From positions 1 through 51,226 of the forward strand of contig JALWUQ010000039.1 of assembly GCA_026993075.1 (NCBI GenBank): a DNA stretch of 51,226 bases, given 5' to 3'. Of this stretch, positions 43,853-51,147 are shown piece after piece (positions within the stretch are counted from its first letter, which is position 1; each line of letters starts with the position of its first letter). The DNA comes from Campylobacteraceae bacterium. Its GTDB lineage: Bacteria > Campylobacterota > Campylobacteria > Campylobacterales > JALSKU01. The translations under genes and the position numbers were made by a program. The notes under the pieces are model-generated. The model worked only from the letters and a program-made list of their open reading frames with translations, ran no database searches and was not told where the DNA came from.

Positions 43853-44149
43853 CTATTTACCTATTACCTTACCTATTTGTTTGATTTGTTTATCGCTTAG
43901 TCTAGAAGCAAATCCTTTCATTATAGAATTTGATTTTGATTTTTTAAAGCTTTCTAATGCTTTTATAATCTCTTTTTTGCTCATATTTCTTACTATCTTA
44001 GACCTGCCCAATGCTCTTTTTTCAAAATTTTTTCCATGGCAATTCTTGCAAACGGAAATGATTGAGGAAAAAGAGGGTGCACAAAGCACAACTAAAGTAA
44101 AAGAAATTTTAGATATTGACTCTATGAAAAAGACTCTACTAACAGCCAC
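43853..44149 (-). CDS. Small monoheme c-type cytochrome
   Basis: 98 residues with one heme site CKNCH (34-38) and the class-I layout seen in Campylobacterota c553-type cytochromes: CHGKNFEKRALGRSKIV, then an axial-methionine candidate in the NSIMKGFA stretch and LSDKQIKQIGKVI at the end. The start is GTG 44149, with GGAG 9 nt upstream, overlapping the end of the preceding gene by 11 bases. The signal sequence is unusual (IESISKISFTLVVLCAPSFS) and less basic than normal. Last gene of the reductase operon, so a candidate periplasmic electron donor. Confidence 0.75.
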   Translation of the reverse strand: MAVSRVFFIESISKISFTLVVLCAPSFSSIISVCKNCHGKNFEKRALGRSKIVRNMSKKEIIKALESFKKSKSNSIMKGFASRLSDKQIKQIGKVIGK

Positions 44150-44429
44150 CTGATGGCTCCATTCCAACAAGATAATCACTAATACTTAAAATTTTTCCTT
44201 TTTTTGTGATAATGACTTTATCTTTTCCGGTATCTGTTTTTACAATGACTTGGTATTTTTTTGATTTAATTTTCTTTATAGACAAAATTTTTATTTTCGC
44301 TTGGCCATACTGTTTTATAATACTTGATTTTATAACAGGAGGTACTTGAATATTATCTTTTGCCAACAAAGCACTTGAGCTAATCAGTAAAGTAGTTAAA
44401 ATAAAAATATTTATAAATCTTTTAAACAC
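44139..44429 (-). CDS. Secreted small protein with C-terminal Gly-Cys, paralogue 2
   Basis: 96 residues: signal peptide (about 1-23, SSSALLAKD), then a compact basic domain IIKQYGQAKIKILSIKKIKSKKYQVIV with the alternating pattern of a PepSY-like fold, and the ending EPSGGC, so its only cysteine is the last residue. GTG start with GAGGAG 6 nt upstream. Tandem paralogue of the 44451 gene and part of the reductase operon. Function unknown; a sulfur-carrier or redox-thiol role for the terminal Cys is inference. Confidence 0.75.
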   Translation of the reverse strand: MFKRFINIFILTTLLISSSALLAKDNIQVPPVIKSSIIKQYGQAKIKILSIKKIKSKKYQVIVKTDTGKDKVIITKKGKILSISDYLVGMEPSGGC

Positions 44430-44450
44430 AATAAACTCCTCAAAATTTTA

Positions 44451-44741
44451 TCAACACCCGTTTCCAACATTATCGCTAAAGGAAAGATCGTTAACAATGC
44501 TGTAGATTTTTCCTTTTTTATCTATTGTTACCTTATCATGCTCTTGGTTAAATTTTATTTTTACAAGATATTTTCCGGTTTTTAATTTTTTAATTGAAAT
44601 AAAAGAGATTTTTTTATTTTTATACTGTTTCATAATACTTGATTTTATGATTTTAGGGATAGATAACTCTTTAGCAAAGACAGAATTTAAACTCATCAAA
44701 AAAAGTATTATAAAAATCTTTTTCATAAAATCTTTTAACAT
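44451..44741 (-). CDS. Secreted small protein with C-terminal Gly-Cys, paralogue 1
   Basis: 96 residues: signal peptide (about 1-23, NSVFAKE), domain with IPKIIKSSIMKQYKNKKISFISIKK, and ending NVGNGC with a single terminal cysteine. It aligns along its whole length with the neighbour at 44139 (same length, IKSSIxKQY, KKGKI, final GC), so they are tandem duplicates. First ATG 44741 is kept because its 5' DNA matches the start of the paralogue. No strong Shine-Dalgarno. Possible own promoter at 44755-44760. PepSY-like by pattern only; function unknown. Confidence 0.75.
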   Translation of the reverse strand: MLKDFMKKIFIILFLMSLNSVFAKELSIPKIIKSSIMKQYKNKKISFISIKKLKTGKYLVKIKFNQEHDKVTIDKKGKIYSIVNDLSFSDNVGNGC

Positions 44742-44754
44742 AGTAAATCTTTCT

Positions 44755-44803
44755 ATTATAGTGTGCCTACTAAAAGAAAAGAAGGATAACTTTTAGCAGG
44801 CAC
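44755..44803 (-). promoter_or_regulatory. Strong hairpin after the catalytic subunit gene plus -10 box
   Basis: On the minus-strand RNA, 44803-44790 and 44776-44763 form a continuous 14-bp stem with one G-U pair and a 13-nt loop, starting 9 nt after the catalytic-subunit stop. There is no T-tract. A TATAAT at 44760-44755 follows, 14 nt before the next ATG. It may protect the upstream mRNA end while allowing separate output of the small genes. Confidence 0.5.
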
Positions 44804-44811
44804 TGAAAAAT

Positions 44812-47800
44812 CTAAGCTTTAACTAACCCTACAAATGAATCATAGAAAACTGCTGAACCGCCTACTAAATCCTCAAGTGTAGAATTTTTTAAAGCCGTAT
44901 CAACTTTCATTGACGCATTCGGACATAGTCCGCTTTCTCTTGCTTTCTCACCTTTTATGACTTTACCATCGATCATAACATCTCTAGCGCCATAAGCCCA
45001 GTGGCCAAAACTCCAGGAAACATTTATAACTCCAGGTCTTAGTCCCTCAACAACTTCAACTTTTCCTATCATAGGTTTAGTTTTACCATTTCCCAAATCC
45101 CAATTTCCGCTTGGATTATCAGCAGAAACAATTTTTGCTTTATCTCCATTTTTAAAGCCCATACTAAGTGCTGTTTGGCTATTTAGCACAATAGTATTTT
45201 CAGGCATTACAGCTTGTAACCAATAATCAACAGCTTGAGTTCTTGATTGACCACCTGTTATTGGTTTATAAGTTATAAGACGAAGTGGATAAGCAGAACT
45301 TCCAGTAACCGGTTTTCCACCATAATCAACCGCAGGATGATACTTACTTATTCCACTAAATTTCTTACCTGTAAAAGAGTGTCTAGTAGTTCCAACCGGC
45401 TCACTATAGAAGTTAAACTGTTTTCCAAATTTATGTAAAATATAAACACTATTTTCTACATTTTTAGTATAATTTGAATAATCTTCACCTCTAACACCAC
45501 GATTTAGCAAATAGACTACCTTTTTAAACCAATTCTTACCATTTGCATCTATACAGGCTTTTTCCCATTTTGCTATATCAAATGTAGCTGGAGTCATATG
45601 TCTTCTTGCTTTTTTAAATATAGCCATCTCTTTATCATCAGCTTCAGGCAAATCATCACCTTTGTGATCTCCTGCAGCCATATTTGCAGCCATTTTGAGA
45701 AACCAATCTTCCACTCTTTTAAGTGGTTTTCCACCTTCAAAAACATTATCCCCATATCCTGGAAGCTTTAACTTTTCAGCAAATGCCAATAACATTGATT
45801 CATATCCTGCATGCTGTTTCTCACCAAATATTTGAACAGTCTCAGTTAAAGGCTCAATTGTAGGTTGTCTCATTTTTGACATTTTTGTAACTGCCACTAC
45901 TGTAGTGTGTGGTGTCCCCCATCTTTCCCAGATTGCATAATCAGGAAAAATATAATCAGCATACATGCTGCTTTCACCAATGGTTACATCATTTGCAACA
46001 TAAAGAGGAGTCTTATTTAAATCAAGTATTGTCTCCATTGACATATGTGCTGCCGGATTTGATAATAAAGGAGTACCCATAACAGTCATTAAAATCTTGA
46101 TTCCGTATGGATAGGCATCATCAAGAGAAGGGATTGCCTCTTGATAAACATTTCCTGTGTGAGGAAACCAAGGTCTTTTAGCAGGATAGCCATTTTTTTG
46201 AAAATCTGTACTATTTTCATAGTATGAGCCTTCTCTGGTTATTTTATGACCAAATGATTTGGTTTTTCCGGGAAATGCATCTTTTTTAAGATTAAATGGA
46301 CCACCTTTGCTTCCATCTTCGTGATAGTGACCGCCACCAGACATTAACCCACCATTATAATCAATGTTTCCAACTAACATATTTAAATATATTACAGCCA
46401 TACCGTTATAATATCCGTTTGTATGCTGGACAACACCTCTGTACATCTCAGCACCGACTTGTCTTCCATATTTTTCATATTTAGTGTATTCTCTAACTAA
46501 TTCAATAATCTCTTTATCGCTTACTCCTGCTTCCTTTGCCCACTCTTGTATGGATTTACTCATAGCATACTCTTTAACCATCTGTAGTTCAGATTTAACT
46601 TTTATGCCATTTAACTCACCTGAGAAAAAGAGGTCTCCAACAACAGGATTTAGTTTATCATTAGTATTGAATGCTATAGGTTTGCCATTTTTAGTAGTTA
46701 CAAACTCATCACTGCTTCCCATTCCAAGATCGCTTGCTCTTAGTTTTTTACCTGGACCATCTTTATCAAATTTTATCAAGTGTGTTGCACTTGTCCAGCT
46801 AAGTTCTTTATTTTTATGAGCAGCTGCCACATTTGAATTTTCCAAGAAAGATTTTCTTATCTTATTGTTTTCAAACATCCATCTTATCATGCCATAGATA
46901 AGAGCAGCGTCGCCACCTGGACGAACCGGAACCCATTTCCAGGCTTTAGCAGCTGTTTTGGAAAATCTTGGATCTACGACAGCTATCTTGTATCCATCTT
47001 TTATAATGGCATTTGTCATAAGATTTGCCATTACAGGAGGTCCAAAATTTGCCTCAACTGCACCTGTTCCAAAATATATTACAAATCTTGAATTTCTAAA
47101 ATCAGGTTTTAACTGTTCACTAGCAGGTTTCCATTTTCCGCCACCAAGATACTGGCTTGTAACTTGCTTGTATGCTATATGGTGAGACTGTTCGCAAACT
47201 GTTGTGTGTTCCATAAAATTTATACTACCATAAGCAGCTTGTTGCCATCTTTTTGCGAACTCTTTTCTTCCGTGCTCCATTCTTCCAGCAAGCATCAAGC
47301 ACTGGTTATTTTTTGGACCATGATCTGGTTGGTCTGGATTTATCAAATAATGTAAATTGTCTTTATGTTTTGCTTTGAAAGCGCTAAGACTCATTTTGCC
47401 TTTTCCTACATTCATGGCATCTCCTGCCATCTCTTTTGCTATTTTAGGATCTTTTAAAGCTCTTACTTGTCTAAGTCCTTCTACAACTCTGTTTTCCTCA
47501 CCTGGGACATTGGCAAAAAGTTTACCACCTTCGACTACTTCTGTGACAGCTTGATCAAATGGTATAACTTTCCATTTATTTTCACCTCTTTTACCGTCTC
47601 TTTTTAAAACTTTTACTACTCTGTAGGGATCATACATGGTTTGGATTCCAGCTTGTCCTTTAGGACAGATTCCGGCATCTATCTTGGCTCCGACTTGAAC
47701 ATCAGTTGATGTTGGAATCGGGGAATTTAAGTTTTGAATTGAGTAAGGATTGCCATCAATCTTAACTGCAACTCCATCTTCAATCTTAACTTTGATAGGA

Positions 47801-48003
47801 CAATCTGTATGACACTGAAGACAAACAGAATAAATAACATTTTCGGCATCATTTAAAGGATAGTCTATATGACTTCTTCCAAAACCAGAAGTTTTTACCG
47901 TTTCAATGGCATTCAAACATGCAACAGACCCACCCAGTAAAGCAGAAGTCTTTAAAAAAGCTCTTCTGTTCATTGTTTTATTTTCTATATTTTTACTTTT
48001 CAT
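44812..48003 (-). CDS. Periplasmic molybdopterin reductase catalytic subunit (PsrA/TtrA/SrdA class)
   Basis: 1063 residues of the DMSO-reductase superfamily. Tat signal NRRAFLK at 12-18, then a hydrophobic stretch. The [4Fe-4S] site is C61, C64, C68 and C113. The presumed Mo-ligand cysteine is C270 in HTTVCEQSHH. A C-terminal molybdopterin-binding domain holds NSQTALSMGFKNGDKAKIV. The size is nearer tetrathionate (TtrA), selenate (SrdA) or SreA-type enzymes than the ~750-residue PsrA/PhsA. Likely reduces a sulfur or chalcogen compound in the periplasm; the substrate is not decidable by eye. Overlaps the NrfD gene by 4 bases. Confidence 0.88.
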   Translation of the reverse strand: MKSKNIENKTMNRRAFLKTSALLGGSVACLNAIETVKTSGFGRSHIDYPLNDAENVIYSVCLQCHTDCPIKVKIEDGVAVKIDGNPYSIQNLNSPIPTSTDVQVGAKIDAGICPKGQAGIQTMYDPYRVVKVLKRDGKRGENKWKVIPFDQAVTEVVEGGKLFANVPGEENRVVEGLRQVRALKDPKIAKEMAGDAMNVGKGKMSLSAFKAKHKDNLHYLINPDQPDHGPKNNQCLMLAGRMEHGRKEFAKRWQQAAYGSINFMEHTTVCEQSHHIAYKQVTSQYLGGGKWKPASEQLKPDFRNSRFVIYFGTGAVEANFGPPVMANLMTNAIIKDGYKIAVVDPRFSKTAAKAWKWVPVRPGGDAALIYGMIRWMFENNKIRKSFLENSNVAAAHKNKELSWTSATHLIKFDKDGPGKKLRASDLGMGSSDEFVTTKNGKPIAFNTNDKLNPVVGDLFFSGELNGIKVKSELQMVKEYAMSKSIQEWAKEAGVSDKEIIELVREYTKYEKYGRQVGAEMYRGVVQHTNGYYNGMAVIYLNMLVGNIDYNGGLMSGGGHYHEDGSKGGPFNLKKDAFPGKTKSFGHKITREGSYYENSTDFQKNGYPAKRPWFPHTGNVYQEAIPSLDDAYPYGIKILMTVMGTPLLSNPAAHMSMETILDLNKTPLYVANDVTIGESSMYADYIFPDYAIWERWGTPHTTVVAVTKMSKMRQPTIEPLTETVQIFGEKQHAGYESMLLAFAEKLKLPGYGDNVFEGGKPLKRVEDWFLKMAANMAAGDHKGDDLPEADDKEMAIFKKARRHMTPATFDIAKWEKACIDANGKNWFKKVVYLLNRGVRGEDYSNYTKNVENSVYILHKFGKQFNFYSEPVGTTRHSFTGKKFSGISKYHPAVDYGGKPVTGSSAYPLRLITYKPITGGQSRTQAVDYWLQAVMPENTIVLNSQTALSMGFKNGDKAKIVSADNPSGNWDLGNGKTKPMIGKVEVVEGLRPGVINVSWSFGHWAYGARDVMIDGKVIKGEKARESGLCPNASMKVDTALKNSTLEDLVGGSAVFYDSFVGLVKA

Positions 48004-49172
48004 TTTTCCTCTCCTGCTGTTTGATATATTGGTAAAATTGCTTTACCTATCATAAATACTAACATGACAACAGCTACGATAAATGACACTACTTGCCATT
48101 CCATAATTGATGGTAGATAACTAAATGTTAGTCTGCTGTTTACCCAAGCACCAGCGATACCTTTTATTTCCGGATCAAGCATACCAGGAATTACAATATT
48201 TAATCTTACTGCTAAGAAACTACCTGCTATGAGTAGTCCAGCAAGTGCAATAGCACCTGGTGATTTTGATTTGAATATTAGTAAAATTCCTGGAATTACT
48301 ACACCGATTAATAAATGAACTATCCAAAATGTATACCAATAATGTCCAAATAAAATTTGTGACCAAATGTGTCCTTCTCCAAATTGAGAATAGAAAGTAC
48401 CCATATATACTTCTGATAATTCTAAAATTTCATCTAAAATCAAAAGTGCTAAAGTTGTTTTTCCCAAAAATATCATCATTTTTGTAAAATCATCTTTTGA
48501 AAGTTTCGGCCTCCAAATATATGCAACTGTACAAAAAAGTGCACCGCCACTTAAGAATGCTCCAGCTAAAAATACAACCGGCAACATTGGTCCATGCCAA
48601 TAAGGTTTTGATATCAGATTTGAGAAGACACCACCGACACCTCCGTGAAATGCAAATGCCAAAGGAATACTCCAAATACCAAATGCTATAAGAATATTTT
48701 TAATAGTTTTTCGTTTTTCTCCTGTAACTTGTTCGTGTCTAATGGCAAAATATAATTCTATACAAAGAGTTACAAAGTATGCACTGTATAAAACAGCCAT
48801 CCAACCCATCATTGAGTGGAGATTTGGATCAAGTATAAGACTAAAAGCTCTTAATGGATGTCCGAGATCAACTCCAACTGAGATCATAGCACCGACTAAA
48901 GTTGCAATGGCTACTAATAAAGCCATTTTTCCAACGGTTTTAACAGCTTTTATATGGAAAACATAAGTCATAACAGATATCATTAATGCTCCTGCAGATA
49001 AACCTATAAGCCAAATATAAGATGCAATCCAAAGACCCCAAGGAAAGTATGAGCCATAGTTTGTATGAATATGACCATTTACCAATCTATCTATAAAACC
49101 TGGAATTCCCCATGCTCCAAAACCGATAATTAAAATCCAAGTGATTATATTTCCTATTTTATTTCTTGTCAT
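48000..49172 (-). CDS. NrfD/PsrC-family quinone-interacting membrane subunit
   Basis: 390 residues, about nine to ten predicted membrane helices, with the NrfD pattern in the first third (YFPWGLWIASYIWLIGLSAG). Anchors the complex and passes electrons between the menaquinone pool and the Fe-S subunit. It sits between the ferredoxin gene (9 bases) and the catalytic gene (ATGA overlap), with AGGAGG upstream. Typical B-C-A gene order. Confidence 0.9.
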   Translation of the reverse strand: MTRNKIGNIITWILIIGFGAWGIPGFIDRLVNGHIHTNYGSYFPWGLWIASYIWLIGLSAGALMISVMTYVFHIKAVKTVGKMALLVAIATLVGAMISVGVDLGHPLRAFSLILDPNLHSMMGWMAVLYSAYFVTLCIELYFAIRHEQVTGEKRKTIKNILIAFGIWSIPLAFAFHGGVGGVFSNLISKPYWHGPMLPVVFLAGAFLSGGALFCTVAYIWRPKLSKDDFTKMMIFLGKTTLALLILDEILELSEVYMGTFYSQFGEGHIWSQILFGHYWYTFWIVHLLIGVVIPGILLIFKSKSPGAIALAGLLIAGSFLAVRLNIVIPGMLDPEIKGIAGAWVNSRLTFSYLPSIMEWQVVSFIVAVVMLVFMIGKAILPIYQTAGEEK

Positions 49173-49181
49173 TTCATCCTC

Positions 49182-50138
49182 CTACTTAATATAATACACA
49201 CTTGGGTGTGTACCTTCTTCTTCTTTGAGTCTAAAAGCATTAGGTAGAGCGATTAATTCTGCCACTAAACTTTCAGGATCACTGCCATCTCCAAAATATG
49301 TAGCTCTTCCTATGCAAGTTACAACACATTCAGGAAGCATTCCTTTATCAATTCTTGGGATACAAAAGTGACATTTTCTGGCATTACCTATAGGAGATTT
49401 ATCTTTTTCTCTTTTCCAGTCTTTTGCATACTCAAATGAAGCTTCGTTTTCATATTTAATAGCTTTGGCTTTACCCAATAATGACTCTGGTGCATCAGCA
49501 GCATCATCAATATATTCCAAACCAAAGTCAAATGTTCTCGCATTATAAGGACATGCGTTTATACAATATCTACAACCGATACATTGATCATAATCAATTA
49601 CCACGATGCCATCTGGTCTTTTCCATGTAGCAACAGCTGGGCAAACAGGAACACAAGGAGGTTCATCACACTGCATACAAGGTCGAGGCAAAGTTACATG
49701 TCCTACATTTGGATATGTTCCCACTTCTCCTTGTATTACGGGTCTGTATATGACTCCTGGTGGCAGTTTGTTTTCAGCCGCACAAGAGACAGAACATGCA
49801 TCACAGCCGACACATTTTCTCAAATCTATAACCATATTCCATTTTCTTTGTTCAATTGGTTTTTTGAGTGCTCTTTGCATATCTCTCATCATTCTGAGAA
49901 TTGCATCTTCACCAGGTTGTTGTGGCGGTAATTTAAACGGTTCAAATGGTAAAGCAACATTTAGATTACTTCCATCTTCTTTTGCTTTGGCTGAAGTAGG
50001 AGCTAAAGCACTAATAACTCCCGTTGCAACCAATCCACCAAATACGCCTTTGCTAAACTTTTCCAGAAATTCTCTTCTGGAACTATCTGTTTCTAAAGTC
50101 AACTCTTCGCTAACTTTTGAAAGCTCTTCTTTGCTCAT
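49182..50138 (-). CDS. Four-cluster ferredoxin-like electron-transfer subunit
   Basis: 318 residues. The N-terminus has a twin-arginine motif (SRREFL, 20-25) and a hydrophobic stretch, so this subunit carries its own Tat signal. Four Cys clusters follow: [11 protein letters not shown] (C109, C112, C115, C119), [24 protein letters not shown] and CHFC...C, for four [4Fe-4S] centres as in PsrB/TtrB/DmsB. Carries electrons from the NrfD subunit to the molybdenum subunit. First gene of the operon, with AAAGGAG upstream. Confidence 0.92.
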
Positions 50139-50169: not shown

Positions 50170-50199
50170 CAGTATATAATTGAAGTTCAATTATAACTG
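50170..50199. promoter_or_regulatory. Hyphenated palindrome in the reductase/phnD divergent region
   Basis: A core 21-bp palindrome TATAATTGAA-G-TTCAATTATA (50175-50195) extends to 50170-50199 (CAGT...ACTG) with one bulged base. It also contains a minus-strand TATAAT, so a regulator bound here would cover the promoter of the reductase operon. The rest of 50139-50280 has a small GCCT/AGGC hairpin (50239-50252) followed by T-runs before the phnD-like gene. Confidence 0.55.
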
Positions 50200-50280
50200 A
50201 CCTATATGGCGCAATAACTGTTCCATATTTTATAGAATGCCTGTATTTAGGCTTTTTAAATTTTTTTAAAGGATTTTAAA

Positions 50281-51147
50281 ATGAATTTTGGACAAAAATT
50301 TTCCACAGGTGGTAAAATTTTTACCACTTTGATTATACTTTTTATGCTTTTTTCATCGGTTTACGCAAAAAAAATTACATTTGCTTTTACAGGTACCACT
50401 TTGAAAGAAGATTTAAAAACTTATCTTTTGTGGCAAAGATATTTGGAAAAAAATTCTCATTTTGATATAGGGATAAAATTTGCTAGAACTTATGCAGAAG
50501 TTATATCAAGTATAAAAGATGAAAAAACCGATATTGCTTATGTATGCAGTTCAACTTATATGATTCTAAGAGATAAAAAAAATGCAAGATTATTAGCAAT
50601 TCCTATAATAAATGGTAAAGATAAGTACTACTCTTATGTTATTGCTCTAAAAAAAAGTAAATATAAAAGCTTGCTTGATTTTAAAGGAAAAATATATGCT
50701 TTTACTGATCCAGGATCTAATTCAGGAGCTATAGCCCCAACTTATTTTTTATTAAAAAAAGGATACAAGGTAAATACTTTTTTTAGAAACTTAGTTTATA
50801 CTTATGACCATGGCGAATCTATAAAAGCAGTAATAGACGGTTTTGTAGATGGGGCAAGTGTGGATAGTTTGGTTTATACACAGTATATAAAAAAACATCC
50901 AAGTGCTACAAAAAAGTTAAGAATTGTTCAAAAGTTGGGATCTTTTACCATTTCTCCTATAGTAATAAGATATAACATCAACAAAAAAGAGTTTAAAAAA
51001 CTTCAAGATTTGTTTTTGAATATGAATAAAACAAAAATAGGAAAAGAGATACTAAATCATTTAAATATTGAGAGGTTTGTAAAACCTTCCAATCAGGAAT
51101 ATACTAAAATTTATCAAATGCAAAAATATATAAAAGAGCATAAGTGA
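50281..51147 (+). CDS. PhnD-type periplasmic substrate-binding protein
   Basis: 288 residues: signal peptide (about 1-30, SSVYAKK), then a two-lobed type II binding protein of the PhnD family. TDIAYVCSSTYMIL lines the ligand cleft, and YAFTDPGSNSGAIAPTYFLLKKG is the family signature. No ABC permease or ATPase follows within the window. PhnD-like proteins or domains serve as sensors for TtrS and ArxX/ArrX-type systems next to tetrathionate or arsenic respiration genes, so a sensory role is plausible here (inference). Confidence 0.85.
   Translation: MNFGQKFSTGGKIFTTLIILFMLFSSVYAKKITFAFTGTTLKEDLKTYLLWQRYLEKNSHFDIGIKFARTYAEVISSIKDEKTDIAYVCSSTYMILRDKKNARLLAIPIINGKDKYYSYVIALKKSKYKSLLDFKGKIYAFTDPGSNSGAIAPTYFLLKKGYKVNTFFRNLVYTYDHGESIKAVIDGFVDGASVDSLVYTQYIKKHPSATKKLRIVQKLGSFTISPIVIRYNINKKEFKKLQDLFLNMNKTKIGKEILNHLNIERFVKPSNQEYTKIYQMQKYIKEHK

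Follow-up and report, generated by a model that had tools for sequence, protein, structure and literature searches.

In a window of 51,226 nucleotides of DNA from a Campylobacteraceae bacterium (contig JALWUQ010000039.1; the window is the whole stretch that was analyzed), six genes on the minus strand form an operon that encodes the B, C and A subunits of a molybdopterin reductase, two small secreted proteins, here called P1 and P2, and a monoheme c-type cytochrome. The operon probably encodes an alternative respiratory arsenate reductase of the Ttr clade, which has replaced ArrA under the control of the ArrXSR sensor, kinase and regulator. The operon itself, the conserved cysteine arm of P1 and P2, the strict linkage of these proteins to the reductase, the class of the sensor, the design of the promoter, the absence of ArrA and the ArrA-like motifs were all read from the sequence. 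The original prediction, made from this DNA before any database search, had proposed that the cysteines could hold sulfur or selenium species and deliver them to the catalytic site, or act as redox thiols; it did not take in the sensor gene, which lies on the opposite strand. The sensor, the promoter, the gene neighborhood, the displacement of ArrA and the active-site motifs point to arsenic rather than to a substrate of the sulfur/selenium class, and that part of the prediction is probably wrong.

The A subunit (44812-48003, minus strand; 1063 aa) is recognized by profiles, motifs and tree as a catalytic subunit with a molybdenum bis-pyranopterin guanine dinucleotide cofactor (Mo-bisPGD). It has a twin-arginine translocation (Tat) signal, RRAFLK, a cysteine as molybdenum ligand (C270) and a 4Fe-4S motif (C61-C64-C68-C113). 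The protein scored 455 bits against the TtrA model NF011567 (cut-off 1750; a true TtrA scored 2076), 174 bits against the PhsA model (cut-off 694) and 125 bits against the ArrA model NF041714 (cut-off 1600), a cut-off that was also missed by the ArrA controls from the Campylobacterota, with 1067-1082 bits. The gene order BCA in combination with Tat signals on A and B is a hallmark of the Ttr clade (PMC2500031), and the window operon fits this hallmark. In the tree, A forms a lineage of its own with a homolog from genome G411 (45% identity), outside TtrA and with ArrA far off; the branch dividing A from ArrA and Phs is starred. By its sequence, A is a member of the Ttr clade. Its identification as TtrA, canonical ArrA or Psr/Phs was rejected on the basis of the scores below the cut-offs, the gene order, which is neither CAB nor ABC, and the motif AGRM.

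Within this clade, the active-site motifs of A resemble those of ArrA. Gly-Arg is found at the position of the ArrA (R/K)GRY motif (AGRM in A), while TtrA and TtrA-like proteins are without GR. The C-terminal region contains FGHWAYG as in ArrA, and GHWAYG is missing from TtrA and TtrA-like proteins. The segment around the molybdenum-ligand cysteine, EHTTVCEQSHH, is nearly identical to that of a Citrobacter homolog, and CExSHH is missing from TtrA. According to published descriptions, the Ttr clade contains a second, alternative arsenate reductase (PMC10100899, PMC7331816), and a TtrA-like enzyme of Pyrobaculum has been proposed as an arsenate reductase (PMC9751042).

Divergent from the operon is the gene for a predicted periplasmic arsenic-oxyanion sensor of the ArrX/AioX type, X (50281-51147, plus strand; PF12974), the best PDB match of which was ArrX (6x6b, 127 bits), as compared to 111 bits for AioX and 64 bits for PhnD. 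Alignment to the ArrX and AioX chains and to the AioX of the same genome demonstrates that X has all seven residues of the AioX pocket (Tyr88, Cys106, Tyr131, Ser161, Ser163, His192 and Asp210 in AioX numbering), which include the cysteine that bonds arsenite (PMC5908839). This cysteine is missing from PhnD and was not found in the TtrS sensor domains examined. The loop at the position of V56/F57 in AioX is T-T in X, polar as in ArrX, and V-V in the AioX of the same genome. By sequence, X is a member of the AioX/ArxX/ArrX sensor family. Since a kinase and an AtoC/sigma54-type regulator follow X just beyond the window (contig 51371-54409), its interpretation as a transporter component was rejected; the epsilonproteobacterial ArrR has been reported to be of the AtoC/sigma54 type (PMC5908839). 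X, the kinase and the regulator are 43, 34 and 43% identical to the trio beside aioBA in the same genome. The sensor tree consists of three clades with an unreliable root, and by descent X could be nearer either to ArrX or to the local AioX.

Upstream of B, we identified a sigma54 -24/-12 promoter (TGGAACAGTTATTGC; 50211-50225, minus strand) and an imperfect palindrome (CCTAAATACAGG; 50240-50251, minus strand), which is a candidate binding site for the sigma54 regulator. Taken alone, the sigma54 hexamers are not significant in the window, with one match against 0.41 expected. In each of the eight orthologous operons examined, the sigma54 site is conserved at a distance of about 85-90 bp from B, and a palindrome of the type CCCTAWWTTTAGGG was found 10-14 bp upstream of this site in seven of the eight BCA promoters and in six of six arrCAB promoters. 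The combination of palindrome and sigma54 site was seen in 1 of 28,000 shuffled promoters. As judged from these motifs, the BCA operon and arrCAB of sister genera have the same promoter design, an upstream activating sequence (UAS) plus a -24/-12 promoter. A further palindrome (ATAATTGAACTTCAATTAT; window 50170-50200) lies between the sigma54 promoter and B, where the operons of genus g27 differ in sequence. The genome of the window also contains an arsenite oxidase (G000:C17, L118 5988-8969 and 1961-5876; AioA 1016 bits, cut-off 359), with a Rieske subunit and a divergent X-S-R trio of its own; no UAS plus sigma54 element of the BCA-operon kind was found in its aioBA promoter region.

The nearest relatives of X (about 50% identity; genera g24 and g47) are encoded divergently to arrCAB, in some cases beside ArsP-like and arsenate-reductase-like genes. 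ArrA was identified in all six tested genomes with a sensor divergent to arrCAB and in none of the 12 genomes with the BCA operon, the absence being judged on these assemblies, several of which are fragmented metagenome-assembled genomes (Fisher p about 5e-5, without correction for kinship). Genome G422 has an arsenic island (L162, G422:C94 5072-12439) directly after the reductase and its one Cys-tailed protein. It starts with a PstS-like protein and a methyl-accepting chemotaxis protein that are 57% and 44% identical to the pair located after arrCAB in G265, and which may serve as a taxis sensor for arsenate or phosphate; these are followed by cytochrome c, ArsR, ArsB (454 bits), ArsP, a thioredoxin-like protein and a protein with a metallo-beta-lactamase fold. 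AioA was present in 6 of the 12 BCA genomes as compared to 9 of the 397 genomes of the class; because the genomes are related, the p-value of this enrichment is only indicative.

Additional homologs of A were observed in simpler contexts. The homolog in G411 (genus g24), which contains GHWAYG, is encoded in a BCA operon (L158, G411:C2 1297-9160) that is followed by genes for a response regulator and a probable sensor kinase and lacks a Cys-tailed protein; as judged from its sequence, this operon links the window lineage to simpler operons. The best-scoring plasmid homologs of A (about 32% identity) are encoded in haloarchaeal plasmid BCA operons with a TorD chaperone (L088, L089), and these are without the GR and GHWAYG motifs. 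The genome of the window is rich in periplasmic reductases; it also encodes NapA, a TorA-type reductase and a formate dehydrogenase.

The two Cys-tailed proteins, P1 (44451-44741, minus strand) and P2 (44139-44429, minus strand; GTG start), are both 96 aa long, predicted to be exported by the Sec pathway and 44% identical to each other. Each contains a single cysteine, which is the last residue (...NVGNGC in P1 and ...EPSGGC in P2). In total, 21 complete homologs were collected, with a mean column identity of 52%. Terminal Gly-Cys was found in 21 of 21, as the original prediction had anticipated, and since this glycine and cysteine are two of only seven invariant columns in the alignment, their conservation is more than expected by chance. 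A second protein in G399 without the GC end was set aside, as its frame lies near the end of a contig and none of the relatives matches its last residues; it is probably an assembly chimera. Likewise, weak hidden Markov model hits outside the operon (L003, L004, L008-L031, L094-L107) were on reading found to be unrelated or DsbG-like N-domains.

We surveyed a class sample of 397 genomes, 44 genomes from the family of G331 and nine from the window's own family for carriers. In the class sample, the only true carriers were the window's genome, G331 and G061; in the wider survey, 12 genomes were found to have A orthologs, at identities from 99% to about 75-80%. Wherever an orthologous locus includes DNA downstream of A, at least one Cys-tailed protein is encoded directly after A. 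Most members of genus g27 and the window's lineage have both types, while G061 has only the EEGC type and G422 only the SGGC type. The A gene of G422 is split into fragments on several contigs, some of them overlapping, which suggests a strain mixture. A refined P profile gave five matches of at least 109 bits in 397 genomes of the phylum, all in the BCA operon, and none above 23 bits outside it. Every reliable P homolog adjoins an ortholog of the A subunit, and no small Cys-ended open reading frame (ORF) was found downstream of A in 36 loci with more distant A homologs, two of which have less than 300 bases downstream. These results bear out the predicted co-occurrence with the reductase, and a search for homologs that lack the cysteine or occur away from molybdopterin reductases gave no result at odds with it. 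In the paralog tree, an orthologous group with P2 that also includes genus g27 and G422 was recovered with a support of 98/93, while the placement of P1 is without support. No match to P1 was found among 72,556 plasmids, which were the sample covered outside the Campylobacterota, and neither protein had a match above the cut-off in Pfam, NCBIfam or the PDB sequences.

An AlphaFold2 model of P2, based on the alignment of 21 rows, contains the signal helix, one helix and a four-stranded sheet, with blocks at a predicted local distance difference test score (pLDDT) of 86-91, and a disordered tail with the cysteine at a pLDDT of about 51. Since the modeled tail is disordered, an exposed cysteine arm is a fair reading. 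The top Foldseek matches were N-terminal dimerization domains of Helicobacter Dsb proteins and DsbG (E-values 0.016-0.09, probability 0.95-1.0), followed by DUF2874/BLIP-like proteins; with E-values of 0.016-0.3 overall, the match is a lead rather than an assignment. A comparison with hhalign to DsbG-like proteins of the Campylobacterota gave a probability of 83% over an aligned region that includes the signal peptide. PF11396 (PepSY_like, DUF2874) weakly matched 9 of the 21 members (best E-value 0.0012), and the P proteins of the window scored 14-15 bits against its cut-off of 28.3. It is plausible from these models that P1 and P2 are dimerizing thiol-arm proteins. The original prediction had likened them to DsrC: the exposed arm is retained as a fair reading, given the conserved cysteine and the disordered modeled tail, while no resemblance to DsrC was found in these Sec-exported proteins with a DsbG-N/PepSY-like model.

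The ORF listing and the profiles confirmed all six genes of the proposed operon, in the order B-C-A-P1-P2-cytochrome. The B subunit (49182-50138, minus strand; 318 aa) is a four-cluster 4Fe-4S ferredoxin with an N-terminal Tat-type signal, SRREFL, and its best NCBIfam matches were TtrB (178 bits) and DsrO (177 bits), both below the cut-offs. The C subunit (48000-49172, minus strand; 390 aa) is an NrfD-type quinol-oxidizing membrane anchor (PF03916, 110 bits), and the end of its gene overlaps the start of the A gene. The last gene encodes the small periplasmic cytochrome with the CxxCH motif CKNCH (43853-44149, minus strand; frame end 43853). The listed ORF start at 44179 is probably too early; translation more likely begins with the GTG of position 44149, which overlaps the stop codon of P2. 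The cytochrome scored 23 bits against PF13442 (cut-off 27), and its G422 ortholog 29 bits. Most orthologous loci whose sequence continues downstream have retained it; G061 lacks it, in G399 it is lost to the end of the contig, and in G422 two genes lie between P and the cytochrome. The same operon is present at 95-99% identity in the independent metagenome assembly WFMT01000186 and is therefore not confined to the window contig.

From these observations, we infer the substrate, the direction of the reaction and every step that involves P1, P2 and the cytochrome. X would bind arsenate in the periplasm and signal through the kinase to the AtoC/sigma54 regulator, which would turn on the operon from the UAS plus -24/-12 promoter. 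The NrfD-type C subunit would then oxidize menaquinol, with electrons passing via B to the Mo-bisPGD of A, where arsenate, or a thioarsenate, would undergo reduction to arsenite on the periplasmic side. P1 and P2 would be periplasmic carrier domains of DsbG-N/PepSY-like fold, with a free cysteine on a flexible C-terminal arm. Most likely, the arms would bind thiophilic arsenic at the reductase, either the As(III) product or a thioarsenic substrate, and pass it on, while the cytochrome would probably serve for electron exchange with the complex or for keeping the arms in the reduced state. The arm chemistry is the weakest part of this mechanism. If the enzyme reduces arsenate, it is quite possible that the arms bind arsenic; a redox or assembly role is more doubtful, and the acceptance of sulfane sulfur from thioarsenate or polysulfide is somewhat unlikely. 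A persulfide role would be possible most naturally with thioarsenates. In its fullest form, the proposal is that a respiratory chain here has periplasmic proteins dedicated to carrying arsenic or thioarsenic species, the first of their kind: P1 and P2 would be a pair of DsbG-N-like domains, each with a terminal cysteine that delivers substrate to, or takes As(III) from, an ArrA-displacing Ttr-clade arsenate reductase under ArrXSR control. We put this forward tentatively and consider it doubtful as a whole.

Several observations weigh against an arsenate reductase with arsenic-binding arms. The link between A and arsenate is drawn from sequence and context; A is far from ArrA (125 of 1600 bits), with the (R/K)GRY motif half kept as AGRM. 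The Ttr clade is versatile, with members acting on tetrathionate, selenate and arsenate, so membership in the clade does not fix the substrate. The ArrX binding-pocket residues do not alone set ligand specificity (PMC5908839), and ars genes were seen next to the operon in only 1 of the 12 genomes. As regards the arms, a single C-terminal cysteine binds As(III) only weakly unless two or three arms come together, and the G411 (45%) and Citrobacter enzymes have no P proteins, which implies that the wider lineage can carry out its chemistry without arms.

We considered the possibility that the enzyme reduces a sulfur species (polysulfide, sulfur, thiosulfate or tetrathionate), and that P1 and P2, as carriers of a persulfide, hand sulfane sulfur to A; mechanically, this would be nearest to SoxY or to Sud of Wolinella. 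Such a function would agree with the placement of A, B and C in the Ttr clade, with a cysteine arm like that of SoxY in logic and with a secreted rhodanese-domain protein encoded after the cytochrome in G398 (L159, G398:C4 12208-13014). However, the sensor belongs to the arsenic subfamily and is not TtrS-like, the promoter and regulator are shared with arrCAB, and the TtrA active-site motifs are replaced in A. Moreover, separate TtrA-like genes are present in three of the operon-bearing genomes (G061, G420 and G422), and the window's genome has three Psr/Phs-like Tat-exported molybdoenzymes (G000:C28 10827-16638, C83 6853-8118), two of which lie a short distance apart on the same contig. We therefore regard a sulfur-species reductase as quite unlikely. 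It is improbable that the enzyme is instead a thioarsenate reductase of sulfidic water, in which the cysteine arm takes up sulfane sulfur as Cys-SSH during the conversion of As(V)-S to As(III) while A and the cytochrome handle the electrons. This would join the arsenic sensor with a persulfide-type arm and would agree with the lack of arms in the Citrobacter arsenic-plasmid relative, but no sequence feature singles out thioarsenate and the chemistry is speculative. A selenate reductase of the SrdBCA kind, with arms that bind selenium intermediates, is the least probable of these substrates: SrdBCA shares both its gene order and its clade with the operon (PMC7331816), but no selenium gene was found in the neighborhood, and the members of the sensor family tested by calorimetry did not bind selenate (PMC5908839).

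A reversed enzyme, that is a quinone-linked arsenite oxidase comparable to ArxA within the Arr group, is very improbable. XSR sensors also control arsenite oxidases (AioX, ArxX), AioA is frequent in the same genomes and the periplasmic cytochrome could accept electrons. Yet in ArxA the (R/K)GRY motif of ArrA is replaced by XGRGWG (PMC6549141), which was not seen in A, where the aligned position is AGRM; the C-terminal FGHWAYG is as in ArrA, the sensor loop is ArrX-like, and the genome already has aioBA with its own XSR. A different type of alternative concerns the role of P1 and P2 only, and is compatible with an arsenate reductase: they could be assembly or redox partners, truncated DsbG-type N-domains whose cysteine is joined to A in a mixed disulfide or maintains the heme cysteines of the cytochrome in reduced form during maturation. 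The Helicobacter Dsb domains at the top of the fold matches and the profile match to DsbG-like proteins support this role, as do C817 and C1027 of A, which are outside the cofactor sites and invariant in four orthologs. On the other hand, a single cysteine cannot resolve a disulfide alone, proteins of this kind are not needed for the maturation of other CxxCH cytochromes and Ttr-clade enzymes, and the operon of G061 contains P without a cytochrome. Overall, a role of this kind is unlikely, if less so than any of the other substrates or the reversed direction.

That some organisms respire arsenate without ArrA is a known puzzle (PMC9751042). Since arrA is the usual marker for this respiration, genomes with the BCA operon are scored as unable to respire arsenate. 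If our interpretation is correct, the operon encodes a bacterial Ttr-clade arsenate reductase that is supported by its regulators, an example of one enzyme replacing another under the same sensor, which is testable in relatives. The Cys-tailed proteins would then represent a type of carrier for which we found no description with any molybdopterin reductase. In a search of mostly freely accessible literature, no description was found of a Ttr-clade enzyme under ArrXSR with Cys-tailed partners, and no analogous sulfur carrier was found with tetrathionate reductase. The claim that these proteins are not known from Psr, Phs, Ttr, Srd or Sre systems agrees with this, as no described system of these types with P proteins was found.

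SoxY, with its GGCGG arm, and DsrC, which is cytoplasmic, carry a cysteine at or near a flexible C-terminus, and Sud of Wolinella is a periplasmic carrier beside a reductase. P1 and P2 differ from all three in their modeled DsbG-N/PepSY-like fold and in that the cysteine is the very last residue, and the Pfam and NCBIfam searches gave no profile match to SoxY, Sud or DsrC/TusE. The arm ends in GGC-COOH, and no SoxZ adjoins in the window. The helix plus four-stranded sheet modeled for the P proteins resembles the N-terminal dimerization domain of DsbC/DsbG and PepSY_like (DUF2874), a kinship that would be distant, but P1 and P2 differ from DsbC/DsbG in having no thioredoxin domain and in the terminal cysteine arm, and all scores are below the curated cut-offs.

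The operon shares the BCA order, Tat signals on A and B, an NrfD-type C subunit, the cysteine molybdenum ligand and TtrA as the best model with TtrBCA, SrdBCA and the arsenate reductase of Pyrobaculum aerophilum. It differs from them in its lineage outside the TtrA branch (455 of 1750 bits), in its ArrA-like active-site motifs, in XSR as a replacement for TtrSR and in the additional P1, P2 and cytochrome. A separate ArrX-type sensor, kinase and AtoC-type regulator are found in place of TtrS, a PhnD-kinase fusion, and TtrR. With ArrCAB and ArrXSR, it has in common a divergent, homologous XSR, the same UAS plus sigma54 promoter and GHWAYG, but A is not ArrA (125 of 1600 bits), the order is BCA rather than CAB, and RGRY is only partly kept. 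X resembles AioX, ArxX and ArrX in sequence, in the seven pocket residues and in its partners S and R, but the enzyme encoded beside it is of the Ttr clade and not Aio, Arx or Arr. Finally, a BCA operon for a Ttr-clade reductase beside arsRDABC on plasmids of Citrobacter and Enterobacter (L087, NZ_CP024882.1 4124-9519) has an A subunit that is 32% identical over 97%, the same gene order, CExSHH and GHWGYG. It is without P proteins, cytochrome or XSR, and the next gene encodes a 193-aa protein with no evident signal peptide. The A protein of this enterobacterial operon is annotated only as a molybdopterin-dependent oxidoreductase, and the plasmid operon is a candidate for the missing arsenate reductase of the Citrobacter strains that respire arsenate without ArrA.

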